A stretch of 38,057 bases of DNA from IMG/VR virus record IMGVR_UViG_3300037502_004175, positions 1-38,057 of that record; one strand, given 5' to 3'. The stretch comes from a virus. Numbering within the stretch: position 1 is the stretch's first letter; every line of letters starts with the position of its first letter. A program made the position numbers and the translations under genes. Below are positions 2,880-15,747 of this stretch, piece after piece. Under the pieces are notes generated by a model, which worked only from the letters and a program-made list of their open reading frames with translations, did no database searches and was not told the origin of the DNA.

Positions 2880-3704
2880 TTAGTCTTTTAAAGTTATTAT
2901 TGTTCGAATTAATACTCCAGTTATATATAATAAAAATTCTACTTCAGGTTCATTCACATTATTATTATGTTTTGCATGATCATTATTATAATTACAATAG
3001 TATGTGATACAAGTTGTAATTAAATTTCTTATGCTAACTGAGATATTTTTTTCTTTAAGGAACTTTCCTAAGTCTTGATTTTCTAAGCTTTTTTTGTTAT
3101 TAAAAATGTCTTTAAGAAATAGTTCAAGTGATAAACGTAAATTATCTATAATGTCTCTTTTATCCTCATTATTAATAATCTTGCTTATAGAACTTTTATA
3201 CCGTTCTTTTGATTTAGGATAATCATCTAACCAATCGTATATATCATATACTAATTTTTCGTCTAATGATTTTGCACCTATTGGCAGAATGTTTATATCT
3301 GAACCCACTTTTACATTGATAGGTATATTTGATGTCTTGGCTAAATTAGTAAGACTATTAATTAGTTCTTCTTGTATAAAGGAAAACTCATCATCTAAAG
3401 ATACCCATAAAAAATGTTGAATAGCATCACATAATTCAAAAAGATTAGATGCATCTAAAATATCATGATAGAATTGGAAGTCAGTATAATCAATGATATG
3501 CTCATCAGCAAAACAAGCCTTTAATTTACAATATGAATAATTTATATTATAAAGGTCAAGGTAAATATTTTCCATAGCATCATCAAATATTTCTTTTATA
3601 TCAATTAGTACTCTAACCTTAAACTCATCAAAGTTATCTTCTATTTTTTTACCCCATATAGAATAAAATTTTTCCCTTTTTAATGCATAATCCGTTAAAT
3701 CCAT
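2880..3704 (-). CDS. Abi_C/HEPN-like abortive-infection family protein
   Basis: A 274-residue soluble protein, last gene of a three-gene minus-strand operon. An ATG at 3716 is possible, but GGAGGT lies between it and the ATG at 3704, so 3704 is preferred. The C-terminal 90 residues (LRLSLELFLKDI near 195, then a helix ending NNDHAKHN and a final hydrophobic helix) have the layout of the Abi_C or HEPN-like domain found in abortive-infection proteins. In that family a polar-x(4-6)-His motif can form a ribonuclease centre; here D-H-x-x-H is visible but the usual Arg is not, so activity is uncertain. The N-terminal 180 residues are not recognised. It starts directly after the ImmA stop. A phage-exclusion role is inferred from family resemblance and position. 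Confidence 0.55.
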   Translation of the reverse strand: MDLTDYALKREKFYSIWGKKIEDNFDEFKVRVLIDIKEIFDDAMENIYLDLYNINYSYCKLKACFADEHIIDYTDFQFYHDILDASNLFELCDAIQHFLWVSLDDEFSFIQEELINSLTNLAKTSNIPINVKVGSDINILPIGAKSLDEKLVYDIYDWLDDYPKSKERYKSSISKIINNEDKRDIIDNLRLSLELFLKDIFNNKKSLENQDLGKFLKEKNISVSIRNLITTCITYYCNYNNDHAKHNNNVNEPEVEFLLYITGVLIRTIITLKD

Positions 3705-3718
3705 AGATACCTCCATTA

Positions 3719-4150
3719 CTAGTAGAATTTAAATTTAATTATTTCTTTTGGTATTGCTAGTATTTCAGATATTTCTTCAAGATTTCGTCCTTTAAAGTCT
3801 GGATCCAGATGAAAATTATCCGGTAGAAGTAAATGTGCTGAAAATTCATTCGCCTGTCGCTCAAACTTCTCTTTTGAAAAAAAGGTCTCTTCAGTTAGGT
3901 AAGACATATTAAGAGTAGGGTGAAGGACAGCATGTCCTAATTCGTGAGCACATACTACCCGTTGATCATAATAATCTAAGTTTACATTAATAATTATGAA
4001 ATGGAAACCATTATGCTTAATATATAATCCTTTTATATTTCCTAGGTATTCGTAGAGTAGATTTATTCCAAGATAGTCAGCGATTTCGTTTGGCACGTTA
4101 GTATCGTATTTATCAATTAAAACTTCAACTTTATTTTTTATCCAATTCAC
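3719..4150 (-). CDS. ImmA/IrrE family metallo-endopeptidase
   Basis: A 143-residue zinc peptidase of the ImmA/IrrE group, which in ICEBs1 and related elements cleaves the XRE immunity repressor. The zinc motif is HELGH at residues 69-73, with a downstream ERQANEFSAHLLLP helix supplying the likely third ligand, Glu102. Start is GTG at 4150, with an AGGAAG ribosome site inside the end of the upstream gene and only 1 nt between the genes, so translation is probably coupled. Unusually it is not next to the repressor gene (8126-8524) but 4 kb away, between a nucleoid-associated protein and an Abi-like gene. Its target may be that repressor or an operon-specific partner. Confidence 0.88.
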   Translation of the reverse strand: MNWIKNKVEVLIDKYDTNVPNEIADYLGINLLYEYLGNIKGLYIKHNGFHFIIINVNLDYYDQRVVCAHELGHAVLHPTLNMSYLTEETFFSKEKFERQANEFSAHLLLPDNFHLDPDFKGRNLEEISEILAIPKEIIKFKFY

Positions 4151-7173: not shown

Positions 7174-8052
7174 TTATGTACAACGATTTTTGTTATATTT
7201 ATTTAGTAAAGTAGTAACATCATCATCTGGAAATTTATATTTAATAGCTGATTCAAAGGCAGATTGGCCTATTGAAATAGAACCTATAGGTTTGGCTCCA
7301 GCTGGAATTTCAACAATATTCTCACCATCAAAATACGTTTCATCATCATATTTTCTACGTAAATATGTATATAATTTACGTTTGCTCTTTTCGAAGAGAG
7401 GGTTTAGCCTAACCGATAATGCATCTGAAAAAATATCATTAATTTTATCTGGAATATTTTCTATGCAAAATTGAATTAGTTTGGATAGACTCATGTTTTT
7501 TTTGAAACCAACTATATTGAGAGGTGATAATCTATTATTAAGTTCATTTCGAGAAAATGTACCTAATAATTCTTTAGGATCTTCAAATTTATATAATATC
7601 TCCTGGTTAATAATATTTGAGATATTGGTATTTTCTTTTACTCCAACAGAAGTCTTCTTATGGAAAAGAATTTCAAAAAGAATGTTTTTAAGTTCAAGCT
7701 GTTCTTCAGTAGAGAGTTTTTCAATTTTATCAACTGACTCTTCAAGTTTAAAACTATCTGGATGTGGTAGTTTTTTTATTATGGTAATATCGGCTTTCGC
7801 TTGCAAGTTTACTAACCCTAATTCAATTGCCAGTCTATATATATGCTTGCAAGGCAAATGACGTCTAATAAAGTCCCCACAATTGCATTGATTAAGCATA
7901 ACGTTATAAAGACCACGTCTTCCACTAAACACACCTGTTTGTTTCTCTCTATCAATATTTAGTGGAGTACATTCAGCTTTTTGAGCACTGATTAATCTCT
8001 TTTGTTGATCGCTATGAATATGAATAGCTTCATTCCATTTACCAAAGTTCAA
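7174..8052 (-). CDS. SWIM zinc-finger protein with possible SAP-like segment
   Basis: About 292 residues. Start is uncertain: TTG at 8052 has GAGGTGA 5 nt upstream, while GTG at 8061 overlaps that site. The SWIM signature CxC-x9-CxH is intact (C-N-C-G-D-F-I-R-R-H-L-P-C-K-H, near residues 56-70), predicting a zinc-bound fold that contacts DNA or protein. Around residues 160-195, the segment FSRNELNNRLSPLNIVGFKKNMSL resembles a SAP-type helix-extension-helix, which binds DNA; this is tentative. The C-terminal 60 residues are unrecognised. It lies between the repressor and the accessory operons, and has its own terminator. Stand-alone SWIM proteins occur in prophages and islands without a settled function. 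Confidence 0.7.
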   Translation of the reverse strand: MNFGKWNEAIHIHSDQQKRLISAQKAECTPLNIDREKQTGVFSGRRGLYNVMLNQCNCGDFIRRHLPCKHIYRLAIELGLVNLQAKADITIIKKLPHPDSFKLEESVDKIEKLSTEEQLELKNILFEILFHKKTSVGVKENTNISNIINQEILYKFEDPKELLGTFSRNELNNRLSPLNIVGFKKNMSLSKLIQFCIENIPDKINDIFSDALSVRLNPLFEKSKRKLYTYLRRKYDDETYFDGENIVEIPAGAKPIGSISIGQSAFESAIKYKFPDDDVTTLLNKYNKNRCT

Positions 8053-8125
8053 TTTTTTCACCTCATCAAAGTTTACCTTTATGAGTTCAGCCTTTTTTAT
8101 TATGTATAAGGTAATATTGTATTTT

Positions 8126-8524
8126 TTATGGTTTACTTCTCTTCATGTCTTCAGCCAATTCTTTTACATTCTGTATAGTTTTAAGTAATAACTTTCTTGT
8201 ATGATCATCAAGTGGCTCTCCAGAAAACATAAGCCCATCTGTAGATTTTAATTTTTCAATAAAGCCATTAAGCTCTTCATCAATTTCTTTTTCTTTCCTA
8301 GGTTGTCCAATAGGAGTAGGGTCATTAGTAAAGCCTAATAGATAATCCAATGAAACATTAAATAATTGTGCTAGTTGTTTTTTTGTTTCATCATCTGCTT
8401 GTCTAGCGTTTCTTTCGTATTGTGATATATTATTTTTGGATTTTCCTAAAATTTTTCCTAGTTCTTCTTGTGTTAACTCTTTTTTTAACCTTAATTCCTT
8501 TAAACGATTGCCAAAGTTAGACAA
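8126..8524 (-). CDS. XRE-family phage repressor (ImmR/CI-like)
   Basis: 132 residues. The N-terminal helix-turn-helix (about 5-62) reads LKELRLKKELTQEELGKILGKSKNNISQYERN, followed by the FNVSLDYLLG segment typical of prophage immunity repressors. The C-terminal part is short and helical with no LexA-like Ser/Lys self-cleavage domain, as in ImmR-type repressors that are inactivated by an ImmA protease; an ImmA gene is present at 3719-4150. Start is TTG at 8524 with GAGGTGA upstream. It is transcribed away from an XRE gene at 8687, with four GGTTACT half-sites between them, so it very likely controls both promoters. Confidence 0.9.
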   Translation of the reverse strand: MSNFGNRLKELRLKKELTQEELGKILGKSKNNISQYERNARQADDETKKQLAQLFNVSLDYLLGFTNDPTPIGQPRKEKEIDEELNGFIEKLKSTDGLMFSGEPLDDHTRKLLLKTIQNVKELAEDMKRSKP

Positions 8525-8543
8525 GCTTTATCACCTCAATATT

Positions 8544-8572
8544 ATTGTAGTATTCAATATGGTTACTGTAAA
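8544..8572 (-). promoter_or_regulatory. Leftward sigma-A promoter of the repressor gene
   Basis: On the minus strand, TTTACA (8567-8572) and TACAAT (8544-8549) are separated by exactly 17 nt. The -35 box overlaps half-site 1, which fits repressor autoregulation. Confidence 0.75.
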
Positions 8573-8672
8573 TAGAAAAGAGTCAAGTAACCAATAAGAT
8601 AACATTTTCTAAAATTTATGTTGACAGTAACCAAAACGTGTACTATAATACAGTTAACAGGTTGGTTACTTG
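8561..8672. promoter_or_regulatory. Operator region: four GGTTACT half-sites
   Basis: Four 9-nt sites: GGTTACTGT at 8561-8569 (+), its complement type ACAGTAACC at 8624-8632, CAAGTAACC at 8584-8592, and GGTTACTTG at 8664-8672 (+). They form two sequence types, each used once in either orientation. One overlaps the leftward -35 box, one overlaps the rightward -35 box, and one lies just after the expected rightward start. This is the layout of a bistable immunity switch. Confidence 0.75.
8621..8649 (+). promoter_or_regulatory. Rightward early (lytic) sigma-A promoter
   Basis: A consensus promoter: TTGACA (8621-8626), 17-nt spacer, TATAAT (8644-8649). A repressor half-site overlaps the -35 box and another lies near +10, so the promoter should be fully shut by bound repressor. 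Confidence 0.92.
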
Positions 8673-8686
8673 ATTGGAGGAATATT

Positions 8687-8920
8687 ATGTATGAAAACTT
8701 AAGAAAAATAAGAGAAGAATTAGGATATACACAAGAAGAAGTCTCAGGGCTTTTAGGATATAAAACTAAGAACGCTTACTCTCTAAAAGAGAGAGGAGAA
8801 AGAAAAATTACGTTAGTAGAAGCTCAAAAGATAGCTAAGCTATTTAAAAAGTCAATAGAAGAGATTTTTTTTGAAGATGAAGTAATCAAAGTGTTAACAA
8901 ATGATATAAAAGTATCATAA
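8687..8920 (+). CDS. XRE-family regulator (Cro-like)
   Basis: A 77-residue DNA-binding protein, first gene of the rightward early operon. The HTH spans about residues 5-60 (LRKIREELGYTQEEVSGLLGYKTKNAYSLKERGERKI). The start is ATG at 8687 with GGAGG 6 nt upstream; an in-frame ATG at 8618 precedes the promoter -35 box and would not be transcribed from it. The size, position and divergent repressor fit a Cro-type function or a regulator of early genes. Confidence 0.88.
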   Translation: MYENLRKIREELGYTQEEVSGLLGYKTKNAYSLKERGERKITLVEAQKIAKLFKKSIEEIFFEDEVIKVLTNDIKVS

Positions 8921-8924
8921 ACTT

Positions 8925-9035
8925 AGCAAGCACCAGCAGAAGGGACAAGCAATGAATACCTCCCCAAATTTCAAAATTTAATGTTCACACCGCCCCCGAT
9001 GTTAATTCAGTTTCTTCTGCTTGCTTATACATATT
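8925..9035 (+). repeat. Intergenic structured repeat, copy 1
   Basis: First of four related elements, 111 nt. It begins AGCAAGCACCAGCAGAAGGG and ends CTTGCTTATACATATTA. The 5' segment GCAGAAGGGAC can pair completely with the 3' segment GTTTCTTCTGC using two G-U pairs, even though the 3' segment differs from copies 2-4. The interior has C-rich blocks CCTCCCC and CGCCCCCGATG. It lies between the Cro-like gene and a 90-aa gene. Confidence 0.85.
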
Positions 9036-9057
9036 AAAGAATGGAAGGAATGAGAGA

Positions 9058-9330
9058 ATGGCAAAGTTCAAAGTTGAATATGATAACGGAACAATGAGGA
9101 AAACACTAACCTTTAGAGGAGAAGAATTCACATTAACTTTTGGTGAATTGAATGAAAATGGCTCTAGAACATCAAAAGAGAAAGACTTTCCACATCAACT
9201 ATATAAAAAATTTAGGAACGATGTAGACGAATACATTTTAACCGAAATCATTGAGGCTACTGAAACACTTTCATATGAAAGTGATGATGAAATAGAAAGA
9301 GCCTTAGAGATTTTAAATACCTATGAGTAG
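9058..9330 (+). CDS. Small early phage protein, unknown
   Basis: 90 residues, acidic (SYESDDEIERALEILNTYE at the C-terminus), with a strand-rich N-terminus (AKFKVEYDNGTMRKTLTF). No family recognised. A GGAAGGAATGAGAG purine tract precedes the ATG. It is framed by repeat copies 1 and 2, like the next two genes, so it may be an exchangeable early cassette. Confidence 0.7.
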   Translation: MAKFKVEYDNGTMRKTLTFRGEEFTLTFGELNENGSRTSKEKDFPHQLYKKFRNDVDEYILTEIIEATETLSYESDDEIERALEILNTYE

Positions 9331-9340
9331 ATTTGAATGG

Positions 9341-9449
9341 AAGCAAAAGCAGAAGGGACAAGCAATGAATACCTCCCCCTCATTTTCATTCTTTATATAG
9401 ATCGCCCCCGATGATCAGCCCAGTCCTTTCAGCTTGCTTATAGATATTA
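9341..9449 (+). repeat. Intergenic structured repeat, copy 2
   Basis: 109 nt, sharing the invariant GCAGAAGGGACAAGCAATGA block, CCTCCCCCTC, ATCGCCCCCGATGATC and CTTGCTTATAGATATTA with the other copies. The terminal helix is kept with one mismatch. In this copy ATCG-CCCC-CGAT can form a small internal hairpin. Confidence 0.85.
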
Positions 9450-9470
9450 GTAAATTAGGGTGGTGAAAAG

Positions 9471-9737
9471 GTGAAACGATTAACAGAAAAGACGATAGGT
9501 TGCTTTAAGTATGATTTAGTGGGACAAGAACCTACAATAGGTGGATTTAATAATTATGATGCCTTTTTTAATTACAATATGGCAGTTAAGAGACTAGGAG
9601 AACTTGAGGATTCTATTGAAGCTAAACCAATAGAAGAATGGATCGAAGAGGAGGGAGATTGTTTATGGTGGGAGTTTCCTATACAAGAACCTCCATATGT
9701 TGGATCACCTTTAGATACTAATTTCCCGATAATGTAA
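9471..9737 (+). CDS. DUF551-like small phage protein, reading frame broken near its end
   Basis: 88 residues as read from GTG 9471 (GGTGGTG upstream). The middle has the usual phage pattern RLGELEDSIEAKPIEEW, and the end LWWEFPIQEPPYVGSPLDTNFP is the start of a DUF551-type C-terminal segment. The zero frame stops at 9737 after PIM. In the -1 frame the expected ending DNVTHFTRIIIPIKEDDEIIL continues to a TAA at 9791-9793, giving a protein of about 106 residues. The function of the family is unknown. Flanked by repeat copies 2 and 3. Confidence 0.75.
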   Translation: MKRLTEKTIGCFKYDLVGQEPTIGGFNNYDAFFNYNMAVKRLGELEDSIEAKPIEEWIEEEGDCLWWEFPIQEPPYVGSPLDTNFPIM

Positions 9738-9793
9738 CCCATTTTACAAGAATTATTATTCCAATTAAAGAAGATGATGAAATTATATTATAA
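9722..9793 (+). other. Frameshift site and -1-frame tail of the DUF551-like gene
   Basis: At 9722-9728 the sequence is T-TTC-CCG in the zero frame, fitting the X-XXY-YYZ slippery pattern. Slipping back one base yields TTT-CCC and the conserved THFTRI tail. It could equally be a one-base deletion from a TTTT run. The tail ends 11 nt before repeat copy 3. Confidence 0.7.
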
Positions 9794-9803
9794 TATAACA
9801 TTT

Positions 9804-9912
9804 GCAAGCAACAGCAGAAGGGACAAGCAATGAATACCCCCCTCATTTTATTCTTTGTATAGATCGCCCCCCGATGATCAACCCAGTCCTTTCTACTTGC
9901 TTATATATATTA
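9804..9912 (+). repeat. Intergenic structured repeat, copy 3
   Basis: 109 nt, beginning GCAAGCAACAGCAGAAGGG and ending CTTGCTTATATATATTA. It is nearest to copy 2, differing by small indels in the C-rich block and a few substitutions; the terminal helix has one mismatch. Confidence 0.85.
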
Positions 9913-9965
9913 TTTTTTGAAAGATTAGGTACATTACCAAAGTTATAGGAGAGGAGTACATACTA

Positions 9966-10190
9966 GTGGAAAATCAGAAAGTAGTTGATATCATCAAGGC
10001 TGGACTAGCCTGGGCGAATTGGGATGATGATCAAAAAGAAGCATTTATTATTGCAGGACAAGCGGTAGAAAAACAGATACCCCAAAAAGTAATAAAGATT
10101 GTAGGTGTTTCTAGTCAAGCCTGTCCAGGTTGTAGGTCAAATGCTAATGGGAAGTACTGTTCTAGTTGTGGACAAAAATTATCATACTAA
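9966..10190 (+). CDS. Small zinc-ribbon phage protein
   Basis: 74 residues from GTG 9966, with AGGAG 9 nt upstream. The N-terminal half is helical and acidic (AGLAWANWDDDQKEAFIIAGQAVEKQ). The C-terminus carries two CxxC knuckles, CPGC and CSSCGQ, a treble-clef/zinc-ribbon pattern like the ends of many zinc-ribbon proteins. Probable DNA, RNA or protein contact; exact role unknown. Framed by repeat copies 3 and 4. Confidence 0.75.
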   Translation: MENQKVVDIIKAGLAWANWDDDQKEAFIIAGQAVEKQIPQKVIKIVGVSSQACPGCRSNANGKYCSSCGQKLSY

Positions 10191-10201
10191 ATCTGCTTCG
10201 T

Positions 10202-10329
10202 AGCAAGCAACAGCAGAAGGGACAAGCACTGAATACCTCCCCCTCACGGTATCTTTTAATGTTTATATATAACCTTTGATAGGCCCCTGATGAATTAACC
10301 TAGTCCTTTCTGCTTGCTTATATATTTTA
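10202..10329 (+). repeat. Intergenic structured repeat, copy 4
   Basis: The longest copy, about 128 nt. It has the same 5' block (AGCAAGCAACAGCAGAAGGG) and 3' block (TAGTCCTTTCTGCTTGCTTA), giving an 11-bp terminal helix with one G-U pair, but the middle is about 19 nt longer and diverged (GGCCCCTGATGA in place of GCCCCCGATGA). Confidence 0.85.
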
Positions 10330-10360
10330 ATTTTATTATGTGTGATGGAGGTGAGGAAGT

Positions 10361-10447
10361 ATGAAAACGCAGGACATTATTTTTCAATACCCAAAACAAA
10401 CACAAGGGTATTTTACCAAAAGAAGGGTAGAGAAACAATTTCAATAA
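10361..10447 (+). CDS. 28-aa small ORF after repeat copy 4
   Basis: A 28-residue basic peptide (starts MKTQDIIFQYPKQTQGYF) preceded by an excellent GGAGGTGA ribosome site 6 nt from the ATG. It follows repeat copy 4 just as longer genes follow copies 1-3. No family recognised. The ribosome site is the main support. Confidence 0.5.
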   Translation: MKTQDIIFQYPKQTQGYFTKRRVEKQFQ

Positions 10448-10508
10448 GATAATTAAGGTAATAGGACAATTCTTTCTTCAAATACATTTATAAGGGAGGT
10501 GTTAATTA

Positions 10509-10694
10509 ATGGCCGAACCGGTAACGAAAGGAAATATTGTAGAGGAATATAAGATTGGGAATACAACAATCAAAATAAGTGATGAAGCCTATAGAGATAA
10601 AAAACCAGAAGAGCTTGAAGAGATCCTTATAAGAATTCAAAGTAGGGCTTGGGATTGCATCCTTTCTGCACGTGCGGCCGGAAAAGATGTGTAA
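10509..10694 (+). CDS. Small early phage protein, unknown
   Basis: 61 residues, ATG preceded by GGGAGGTG. It is mainly acidic with a C-terminal helix (EELEEILIRIQSRAWDCILSARAAG). Short proteins of this pattern are common in clostridial prophages between the repressor and replication genes; no function is known to me. Confidence 0.7.
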   Translation: MAEPVTKGNIVEEYKIGNTTIKISDEAYRDKKPEELEEILIRIQSRAWDCILSARAAGKDV

Positions 10695-10720
10695 ACAAGA
10701 TTACAGGAGGTCCAATACAT

Positions 10721-10936
10721 ATGAAAAAAAATTTAGCAGATCAAGTGGTAGCTTTAGTAAGTTCTTTTGCTTATGCAGCATCAGAATATGTTTCAAATTA
10801 TTATAACCAAGATTCAAAAGAAAAGATGGAATCCCAATTTAAAGAATACCATCAAGACTTAGAAGTACTTAGACAAAAGATAAAAGCTTTAGAAGCTTCA
10901 AGAAGTGGACAAGAAGGGGATGAAAACAAAATATGA
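10721..10936 (+). CDS. Small coiled-coil phage protein
   Basis: 71 residues. The ATG at 10721 is chosen because AGGAGGT is 9 nt upstream; the frame is open further back but overlaps the previous gene. A helical N-terminus (LADQVVALVSSFAYAASEYV) leads to a charged coiled coil (EKMESQFKEYHQDLEVLRQK). It overlaps the next gene by 4 nt, indicating translational coupling. Confidence 0.75.
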   Translation: MKKNLADQVVALVSSFAYAASEYVSNYYNQDSKEKMESQFKEYHQDLEVLRQKIKALEASRSGQEGDENKI

Positions 10937-11175
10937 AAGACTGTTCTAGCTGCTCCAATTATGAACCAAAGGATTACATCGGATGCCTTGCGCTGAATAA
11001 ACGTATTCAACAAAATTGTTTTGCTTGGGCATCTTTGGAAGAAAGGATAAGACGTATAGATGATATGGTACAGTATTCAGAAATGTCTAGTTCATCAAAT
11101 ACAGTAGTAGGTCTCTTGATACGAGAGAAAAATAAGTTGATTAAGGAAATGAAACCAATGAGCTCAGTAGTTTAA
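10933..11175 (+). CDS. Small cysteine-containing phage protein
   Basis: 80 residues, starting in the ATGA overlap with the upstream gene. The N-terminal CSSCSNY...CLALNKRIQQNC pattern (four Cys within 30 residues) suggests a zinc knuckle. The rest is helical. Function unknown. Confidence 0.72.
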   Translation: MKDCSSCSNYEPKDYIGCLALNKRIQQNCFAWASLEERIRRIDDMVQYSEMSSSSNTVVGLLIREKNKLIKEMKPMSSVV

Positions 11176-11240
11176 TTAAGAAATGTTTTATTTAACTTAA
11201 TTATAACGAACTGAATGTATTAAATAAAGAATCTTAATTA
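11173..11240. promoter_or_regulatory. Three CTTAATTA sites upstream of the second XRE gene
   Basis: TAATTAAG at 11173-11180 and CTTAATTA at 11196-11203 and 11233-11240, in a noncoding gap of 89 nt. They could be an operator for the following XRE regulator. The words are AT-only apart from one base, so chance is a real alternative. Confidence 0.35.
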
Positions 11241-11264
11241 CTCAAAATGTAGAAGTGAAAGGAA

Positions 11265-11846
11265 GTGAAGTTTACCTTGTGTGTGATTGACGTGATTAAA
11301 ACTACAAGAGAGCAAATGGGACTTAAGCAAAGTGAAATAGCTGTAAAAGTTGGGCTTGCTCCTAGTACATATGGAGCTTATGAAAGAAAGGAACGACCCA
11401 TACCTGATGATGTGGTTTTAGCTGTTGCTAATGAGTTAAAGAATCCTGCCATTATAGCTGAATATTCCTATCAAAGAAACTCTGAATTCTTTAATGTTCC
11501 TGTGTTAAACAATGTTGATACTTACCCACAGGTAGTAATTGATGCATTGATTGAAGAATCAAGTGAAATGATTAAGGCATTAATGGAGATTAAAAAAGTT
11601 ATTAAAAACAAACACAGTTTTGAGAATATATCAGAGAAAGATCATAACCTTCTATTGGATTTGGAAGAACAAGTTGGTGATCTATATGCAGCACTTAAAA
11701 TGCATTTCATATCAATGAATAAATTTGGTGTAAATGTAAAAGAAGTGGAGCAAAGATGTAATCGAAAATTAGTAAGCAAAGGATATTTTCTTAAAAATAG
11801 ACAAAAAAAAGAGCTCTTGAAAGAGCCGATAAAAAATTTCTGTTAA
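11265..11846 (+). CDS. XRE-family regulator with C-terminal helical domain
   Basis: Up to 193 residues. The HTH is near residues 10-55 (IKTTREQMGLKQSEIAVKVGLAPSTYGAYERKERPIP). The remaining 130 residues are predicted helical (SSEMIKALMEIKKVI, LLLDLEEQVGDLYAALKMHF) and may form a dimerisation or ligand-binding domain. Start is unsettled: GTG 11265 is very close to its purine tract, while TTG 11277 or GTG 11283 would be better spaced from GGAAGTG. Probably a second control point between early and replication genes. Confidence 0.8.
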   Translation: MKFTLCVIDVIKTTREQMGLKQSEIAVKVGLAPSTYGAYERKERPIPDDVVLAVANELKNPAIIAEYSYQRNSEFFNVPVLNNVDTYPQVVIDALIEESSEMIKALMEIKKVIKNKHSFENISEKDHNLLLDLEEQVGDLYAALKMHFISMNKFGVNVKEVEQRCNRKLVSKGYFLKNRQKKELLKEPIKNFC

Positions 11847-14760: not shown

Positions 14761-15747
14761 GTGACTTTTAATGTTGAAATTGCAAAGATGTATGGTGTTG
14801 ATGAAGCTATATTAATAGAAAATTTATTCTTTTGGATAAATAAAAACCGTGCTAATAATAGACATTTTTATGATGGATATTATTGGACCTATAATACTGC
14901 AAAAGCTTTTGCTGATCTTTTCCCATTTTGGTCAGAAAAGCAAGTAAGACGTATTATTAAAAGCTTAAAAGAGAAAGGTGTTCTTTTAACAGGTCATCAT
15001 AATAAAAAAGCTTATGATAGAACAACTTGGTATGCTTTAAGTAATGAAATTATGTCTTTTTATGGGGTGGAATGTGCAGAAATATCTGAAGATAATAATC
15101 AGCAGGTGCAAGAGAATGAAACCCTCTGCCCAAATGGGCAAATGGAATTTCCCAAACGGGCAAATGGAAGTACACCAAATGGTCAAATGGAATTTCCCAA
15201 ACAGGCAAATGGAACTTCCCAAACAGTCACACCTATACCAGATATAAACACAGATATAAACACAGATAATAAAAAAATTACTGTCACGACTTCGTGTGAC
15301 GAAGCAACGAATAGAAGTTCTAAGGGTGAACAAAAAAGTTCTGACTTTAAGTTTGAAGAGAATTCAGTACAGGTAAAAATAACAAAGTATTTAATAGCTA
15401 AAATCACAAGTCTATATCCAAAAGCCAAGGTACCTGAAACTCCAACGCAAATAGATAATTGGGCAATACATATTGATCGTATGATCAGAATTGATGGTAG
15501 AACTAAAGAAGAAATAGCAGAAGTTTTGAAATTTGCAACAGAAGATTCTTTTTGGCAAAGCCATATTTTGAGTACGGAAAAATTGAGGAAGAAATTCGAC
15601 ACTCTGTTTATTCAGCTGAAGAGTAAGTCTCAAAAAGGTTCTGCCCCTAAGAAGAATAGCTTTAATAACTTTGACCAACCTGATTATGACTATAGCGAGT
15701 TGGAAAGAAAAGCAAGAGAGCGTTTGATGATGAAAACTAGGAATTAA
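14761..15747 (+). CDS. Phage replication initiator (O/DnaD-like organisation)
   Basis: 328 residues from GTG 14761. The N-terminal winged-helix part (about 1-105) includes VDEAILIENLFFWI, WTYNTAKAFADLFPFWSEKQVRRIIKSLKEKGVL and a WYALS end, as in phage replication initiators. A low-complexity linker (about 110-200) contains four NGQMEFPK-type repeats encoded by DNA iterons. The C-terminal part has a DnaD-like helical segment (TKEEIAEVLKFATEDSFWQSHILSTEKLRKKFDTLF) that may contact the helicase loader. No loader or helicase gene was recognised, so host functions are probably used. Confidence 0.82.
   Translation: MTFNVEIAKMYGVDEAILIENLFFWINKNRANNRHFYDGYYWTYNTAKAFADLFPFWSEKQVRRIIKSLKEKGVLLTGHHNKKAYDRTTWYALSNEIMSFYGVECAEISEDNNQQVQENETLCPNGQMEFPKRANGSTPNGQMEFPKQANGTSQTVTPIPDINTDINTDNKKITVTTSCDEATNRSSKGEQKSSDFKFEENSVQVKITKYLIAKITSLYPKAKVPETPTQIDNWAIHIDRMIRIDGRTKEEIAEVLKFATEDSFWQSHILSTEKLRKKFDTLFIQLKSKSQKGSAPKKNSFNNFDQPDYDYSELERKARERLMMKTRN
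15136..15224. other. Four iterons inside the initiator gene: candidate replication origin
   Basis: Four tandem units of 22-23 nt, consensus RGGCAAATGGAAYTTCCCAA plus AC, at 15136-15157, 15158-15180, 15181-15202 and 15203-15224. The second is the most diverged. Origins inside the initiator gene with iterons are known from lambda O and many Firmicute phages. Confidence 0.75.
15240..15300. other. AT-rich unwinding region and small hairpin beside the iterons
   Basis: Directly after the iterons come two AGATATAAACAC direct repeats and an A-rich run, then a GTCACGA...TCGTGTGAC dyad. This is what a DNA-unwinding element and loading hairpin would look like; inferred from position and composition. 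Confidence 0.5.

Follow-up and report, generated by a model that had tools for sequence, protein, structure and literature searches.

In phages, small early genes that are unrelated to one another are placed under common intergenic repeats, a functional puzzle since the report of the SAS/ESAS repeats of mycobacteriophages. The window, which is the whole 38 kb stretch of DNA analyzed here and reads as a prophage, contains such a repeat in four copies. Does this element work as RNA or as DNA, and what would it do to the genes between which it lies? The window offers arms that mostly pair as RNA and four internal replicates in one operon, and a second phage, described below, couples the same gene family to a different repeat. 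This combination could make RNA against DNA function decidable by breaking and restoring the helix.

The early operon and the four element copies

The prophage layout comprises a serine integrase gene (1128–2714), a leftward CI-like gene (8126–8524, HTH-like from sequence), the small early genes and, after them, genes for a replication-terminator-like protein, an actin-like partition protein, a replication protein, a late regulator, and a terminase. The features of the early region are as follows.

8621–8649, plus strand: consensus early promoter, TTGACA-17-TATAAT (12/12 matches), upstream of the Cro-like gene and all four elements
8687–8920, plus strand: Cro/C1-type HTH gene, the first gene of the early operon (HTH_3, 2.8e-11)
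8928–9026, plus strand: outer helix of element copy 1 (likeness to about 9036)
9058–9330, plus strand: small gene 1, 90 aa, no relatives found
9341–9439, plus strand: outer helix of element copy 2 (likeness to about 9449), one broken pair, A-A
9471–9793, plus strand: small gene 2, frame-0 stop at 9737, −1 frame homology from TTTCCCG (9722) to the stop at 9793
9806–9902, plus strand: outer helix of element copy 3 (likeness to about 9912), one broken pair, C-A
9966–10190, plus strand: small gene 3, 74 aa, zinc-ribbon-like CxxC pairs, with a 61% identical homologue in L051 (see below)
10205–10319, plus strand: outer helix of element copy 4 (likeness to about 10329), longer interior, outer helix fully paired
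10361–10447, plus strand: small ORF 4, 28 aa, after copy 4, strong ribosome site

All four copies reported by the first-pass annotation are present on the plus strand. With up to two mismatches allowed, the 16-mer GCAGAAGGGACAAGCA matches the 38 kb record exactly four times, versus never for its reversed control. Over the full length, copies 2 and 3 are 90% alike, and the other pairs are 70–78% alike. The copies have in common TGAATACC, a C-rich block, a CCCC-GATG block, and CTTGCTTATA, as annotated, except that the CCTCCCC form of the C-rich block is found in three copies only, copy 3 having TGAATACCCCCCTC instead. The ends of the element read AAGCA...TTGCTT. Conservation comes in blocks and is uneven along the length: the 5′ block is near-invariant (24/25 columns), the 3′ arm is variable and differs in copies 1, 2, and 3, and conservation runs on to the right of the helix (TTATAnATATTA). 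The element is real, unusual, and, within the collections searched (see below), private to this phage.

The positions of the copies relative to the genes should be noted. The distance from the upstream stop codon to the element is 7, 10, and 14 nt for copies 1, 2, and 4, respectively. Copy 3 lies 68 nt after the frame-0 stop of gene 2 and 12 nt after the −1 frame stop at 9793. Since the homology of gene 2 runs to 9793 in the −1 frame, every element directly follows a gene. On the downstream side, 31–63 nt separate the end of the outer helix from the next start. The statement of the first-pass annotation that the copies are intergenic and that each precedes a small gene with its own ribosome site holds in 4/4 cases, all of these sites being good (pairing energies with the 16S tail, −7.7 to −13.0 kcal/mol). 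With the hairpin folded, the mean paired probability of the downstream ribosome site is 0.22, 0.29, 0.52, and 0.64 for copies 1–4, so that the site remains largely unpaired after copies 1 and 2.

Independently of the element, the −1 frame of gene 2 (T TTC CCG at 9722 to 9793) shows homology to Enterococcus and Paenibacillus phage proteins with a DUF1642-like C-terminus. This change of frame reflects a true mutation, an error of assembly, or programmed −1 frameshifting.

The region 8500–11300 contains no terminator-like site, and no plus strand promoter-like site was found within any copy of the element. With the promoter at 8621–8649 upstream of all copies, a single early transcript is expected to contain all four. 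The repressor-operator-like motif AGTAACC occurs round the promoter, at 8561, 8586, 8626, and 8664, and is absent from 8921–10334, elements included. If the local repressor acts at the AGTAACC motif repeated at 8561–8670, the elements are therefore not its site.

Outer helix and folding

The ends of the element pair, as had been annotated, though the helix is longer than the 11 bp given: it comprises 17 bp, has two bulged nucleotides in the 5′ strand, and closes a loop of about 60–80 nt. In the four copies, 97% of the 68 cells of this helix are paired (2/68 unpaired), compared with 40–53% when the partner strand is slid by 1–3 columns. The folding z scores of the plus strand against shuffles are −2.8, −2.2, −4.9, and −2.5 for copies 1–4, and those of the minus strand are −2.0, 0.2, −1.2, and −1.2.

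Three of the five changes in the 3′ arm keep their pairs on the plus strand as G-U or G-C, all three in copy 1 (two from G-C to G-U and one from G-U to G-C). The other two break one pair each, in copy 2 (3′ strand GTCCTTTCAGC) and copy 3 (3′ strand GTCCTTTCTAC). Hence the 3′ strand GTCCTTTCTGC that had been taken as general is that of copy 4 only, and the G-U argument for RNA made by the first-pass annotation stands for copy 1 and is offset by the pairs lost in copies 2 and 3. No helix pair is altered on both sides among the four copies, namely, there is no compensatory change. The inner hairpins (P2/P3) are no better than those of shuffled sequences, except in copy 3. The proposal of an RNA-level function thus gains from the significant folding of the plus strand, and is held back by the lack of compensatory change, by the two broken pairs, and by an inner structure at chance level outside copy 3.

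Search for relatives of the element

Searching the window with Rfam gave no match at the gathering score, only chance snoRNA and miRNA matches (E 2–9). Among exact patterns in IMG/VR, the 16-mer core had 10 matches, all lacking the rest of the element, and longer and right-half patterns had none or chance matches. The element was not found in the genome contigs collection, nor in the phage and plasmid collections, where the only match was that of gene 2 to Enterococcus phages. The covariance search proposed by the first-pass annotation was run and returned no homologues: nothing convincing was obtained with the model (R1) in 112 related loci (32 viral and 80 genome loci) and 23 whole records, its weak matches being simple hairpins, and the minus strand of the window itself reaches 20 bits. 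In Bacillota, about 780 genomes searched by BLAST and 318 by pattern, which are samples of larger groups, gave chance-level pieces only (sets of 297, 391, 21, and 398 genomes by pattern or BLAST, with 30 viral records in addition).

For small gene 1, IMG/VR yielded no relative, and small genes 1–4 have almost none among 117 related phage loci. When these loci and the window were scanned by k-mers for spaced repeats of at least three copies, only the window and two of the loci, L051 and L050, were detected. L051 (IMG/VR contig 3300010285), the carrier of the 61% gene 3 homologue, contains an A+T-rich, 37-nt intergenic repeat of its own, which ends in GATATTGTATAGAGTGAAAA and occurs five times on the same strand between small early genes (7595–10328). 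One copy is located just after the gene 3 homologue. The two repeats are alike in being multi-copy, on the same strand, between small genes, and beside the gene 3 family, whereas their sequences are unrelated. The gene family is thus shared, and the separator is private to each phage.

Comparison with known repeat systems

The SAS/ESAS repeats of Cluster K mycobacteriophages, described in 2011, are private repeats that lie in one orientation in the gaps between non-structural genes, and their sequences differ between subclusters (PMC3203893; PMC12699233). They contain a ribosome-site-like block and imperfect 17-bp inverted repeats, of which the left arm is the more conserved, and their function is unknown (PMC3203893; PMC12699233); the inverted repeats of ESAS have been proposed as protein-binding sites (PMC3203893). 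The element of the window is likewise phage-private, intergenic, and in one orientation, with a ribosome-site-like block, 17 paired bases, and a better conserved left arm, and here too related phages use other repeats. However, the 13-bp ribosome-site block of SAS/ESAS lies within a few nucleotides of the downstream start, whereas that of the window element lies far upstream, in the left arm of a helix that ends 31–63 nt before the start. The spacer is 4–13 bp in SAS/ESAS and about 60–80 nt here. Pairing is mostly kept here but not in ESAS, and the sequence and the host group are different, with only four copies. The setting is SAS/ESAS-like, but the element is not a member of SAS/ESAS, since both the distance to the start and the spacer length differ from the defining ones.

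Phage mRNA processing sites and early stem-loop motifs also resemble the element in arrangement. In the early mRNAs of T7 and SP82, RNase III processes stem-loops between the early genes of one message. The SP82 work is cited in PMC12502629. The window element resembles these sites in arrangement, its stem-loops recurring in one orientation in the gaps of a single polycistronic early message. Its loop is larger and its bulged helix is shorter; an RNase III site has a stem of about two turns, and the stem here is the 17-bp helix kept in 97% of cells. The PeSLs of T4-like phages, which lie between small early genes where the genome is variable, combine an early promoter with terminator stem-loop motifs. 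The window element is likewise an intergenic stem-loop repeat in such a setting, but unlike PeSLs its copies have neither a plus strand promoter nor a terminator.

Assignment to PeSL, attC, MITE, an Rfam family, or a CI/Cro operator was tried and rejected in each case: the element lacks, respectively, the promoter and terminator, the core sites, the target duplication, a sufficient score, and the AGTAACC motif.

Possible functions of the element

The balance of probability lies with an RNA function for the element, which probably controls the shared mRNA through mRNA processing or translation control. As a tentative reading, which we rate a little short of even, the element would be an RNA hairpin that acts in cis from the intercistronic gaps of the early (PR-type) operon and serves in processing, or punctuation, of the mRNA. 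In the polycistronic message, the invariant 5′ arm (AAGCAacAGCAGAAGGGAC) would pair with the pyrimidine-rich 3′ arm across the loop, and the element would act post-transcriptionally as punctuation between cistrons. The message may be cut or protected at each copy, as in RNase III-like processing, and each small gene would thereby be given its own 5′ end and stability; cutting or protection of the message appears the most likely form of such punctuation, with RNase III as a candidate by analogy with T7 and SP82. The repeat itself, its location and orientation, the lone promoter-like site upstream, and the helix are shown; we infer that RNA rather than DNA is the working form and that processing is the effect. 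An RNA-level role is favored because the copies occur in one orientation in one operon, pairing is kept on the plus strand, and the minus strand folds less well. The four same-strand copies in successive gaps downstream of a 12/12 promoter, with a helix kept at 97%, point to the hairpin, as do their start 7–14 nt after stop codons and the largely unpaired ribosome sites after copies 1 and 2; the lack of double-sided changes, the two broken pairs, the chance-level inner hairpins except in copy 3, and the lack of homologues point away from it.

Conservation of the 5′ block in 24/25 columns is more than the helix needs, suggesting recognition of sequence, possibly of DNA. A DNA-binding site is therefore a serious rival, though one that we consider rather unlikely: a protein of the phage or of the host would bind the inverted repeat in double-stranded form and so control or mark the early region. 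The better conservation of the left arm than the right, as in ESAS (PMC3203893), the conservation past the helix on the right, and the absence of compensatory changes are consistent with such a site, whereas RNA is favored by the G-U pairs and by the unequal folding of the two strands, the operator-like AGTAACC clusters at the promoter rather than in the elements, and the elements contain no plus strand promoter-like site. Less probable again is a recombination boundary or mobile element, in which homology blocks, attC-like sites, or MITE copies would swap small gene cassettes. The gene-element-gene array with a hairpin after each gene fits such exchange, and the near absence of relatives of small genes 1–4 in the 117 related loci points to a variable region. 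However, a target duplication of at least 4 nt, expected of the MITE-like element considered in the first-pass annotation, is absent from copies 1, 2, and 4, and copy 3 has one chance-level 4-mer. Inspection of the sequence found neither attC core site (RYYYAAC, GTTRRRY) at the element ends, and no transposase was found among the scanned proteins. Conservation in uneven blocks also speaks against this reading, as does the gene 3 homologue beside a different repeat in L051, by which gene and element did not travel together. The recombination boundaries suggested earlier thus gained no positive support.

Translation-related readings were weighed as well. The invariant block could hold a ribosome site (AGAAGGGA), a start codon, and a leader ORF of 9–16 codons, masked by the 3′ arm. 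The 3′ arm (UCCUUUCU) would copy the 16S rRNA tail, and ribosome loading would free it to pair with the downstream ribosome site. We regard this ribosome-gated switch as doubtful. AGAAGGGA pairs over 8 bp with the 16S tail (−9.7 kcal/mol, within the range of the phage's genes), is among the best 2.9% when every AUG of the window is ranked, gives shuffling p values of 0.000–0.007 in copies 1–3, and is 87–100% paired in the folded element. An ATG follows 6 nt after it in copies 1–3, opening micro-ORFs of 9–11 codons (MNTSPNFKI, MNTSPSFSFFI, and MNTPLILFFV). Copy 4, however, has CTG instead of ATG, and the 3′ arms show no preference for their own downstream site. Moreover, minus strand sites are equally good (−12.0 to −12.7, p 0.006–0.038, with TTG/TTG/TTG/GTG starts), so the ribosome-site signal is not specific to the plus strand. 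This control removes most of the force of the leader-peptide idea, which is weakened to a minor reading. Its fullest version, a four-fold ribosome-sensing RNA switch in which the 16S-tail copy locks the ribosome site and a ribosome on the micro-ORF frees the anti-Shine-Dalgarno arm to silence the next gene, is improbable.

We give an equally small chance to trans-acting, sRNA-like hairpins, which would be excised and pair through their C-rich blocks (ACCUCC, CCCC) with host or phage ribosome sites. ACCUCC is the anti-Shine-Dalgarno core, and pairing with some ribosome sites of the window reaches −11 to −17 kcal/mol, but such energies are typical of any C-rich stretch and the inner loops do not form reliably. 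The energy with which a copy pairs with its own downstream site is uneven (−5.3, −11.0, −8.0, and −16.9 kcal/mol for copies 1–4). The suggestion that the C-rich blocks pair with GGAGG in cis thus applies strongly to copy 4 only and weakly to copy 1, and masking of the downstream ribosome sites in cis is inconsistent across copies.

Other features of the window

At 721–1098, beside the serine integrase gene, lies a manganese catalase fragment (PF05067, 1.9e-29) with its N-terminal side cut off. Because this gene is cut off beside the integrase, the prophage end appears to lie inside the host manganese catalase gene, which resembles the spore-coat catalase gene cotJC. On the minus strand at 2880–4150, a candidate defence protein detected by PADLOC (PDC-S32, 7.7e-40) adjoins an M78/IrrE-like peptidase gene (PF06114; CapP-like, 1.8e-15). 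About five 22-nt tandem units of the CCAAACGGGCAAATGGAA type are found at 15130–15241, inside a replication-initiator-like gene (14761–15747), and are possible origin iterons.
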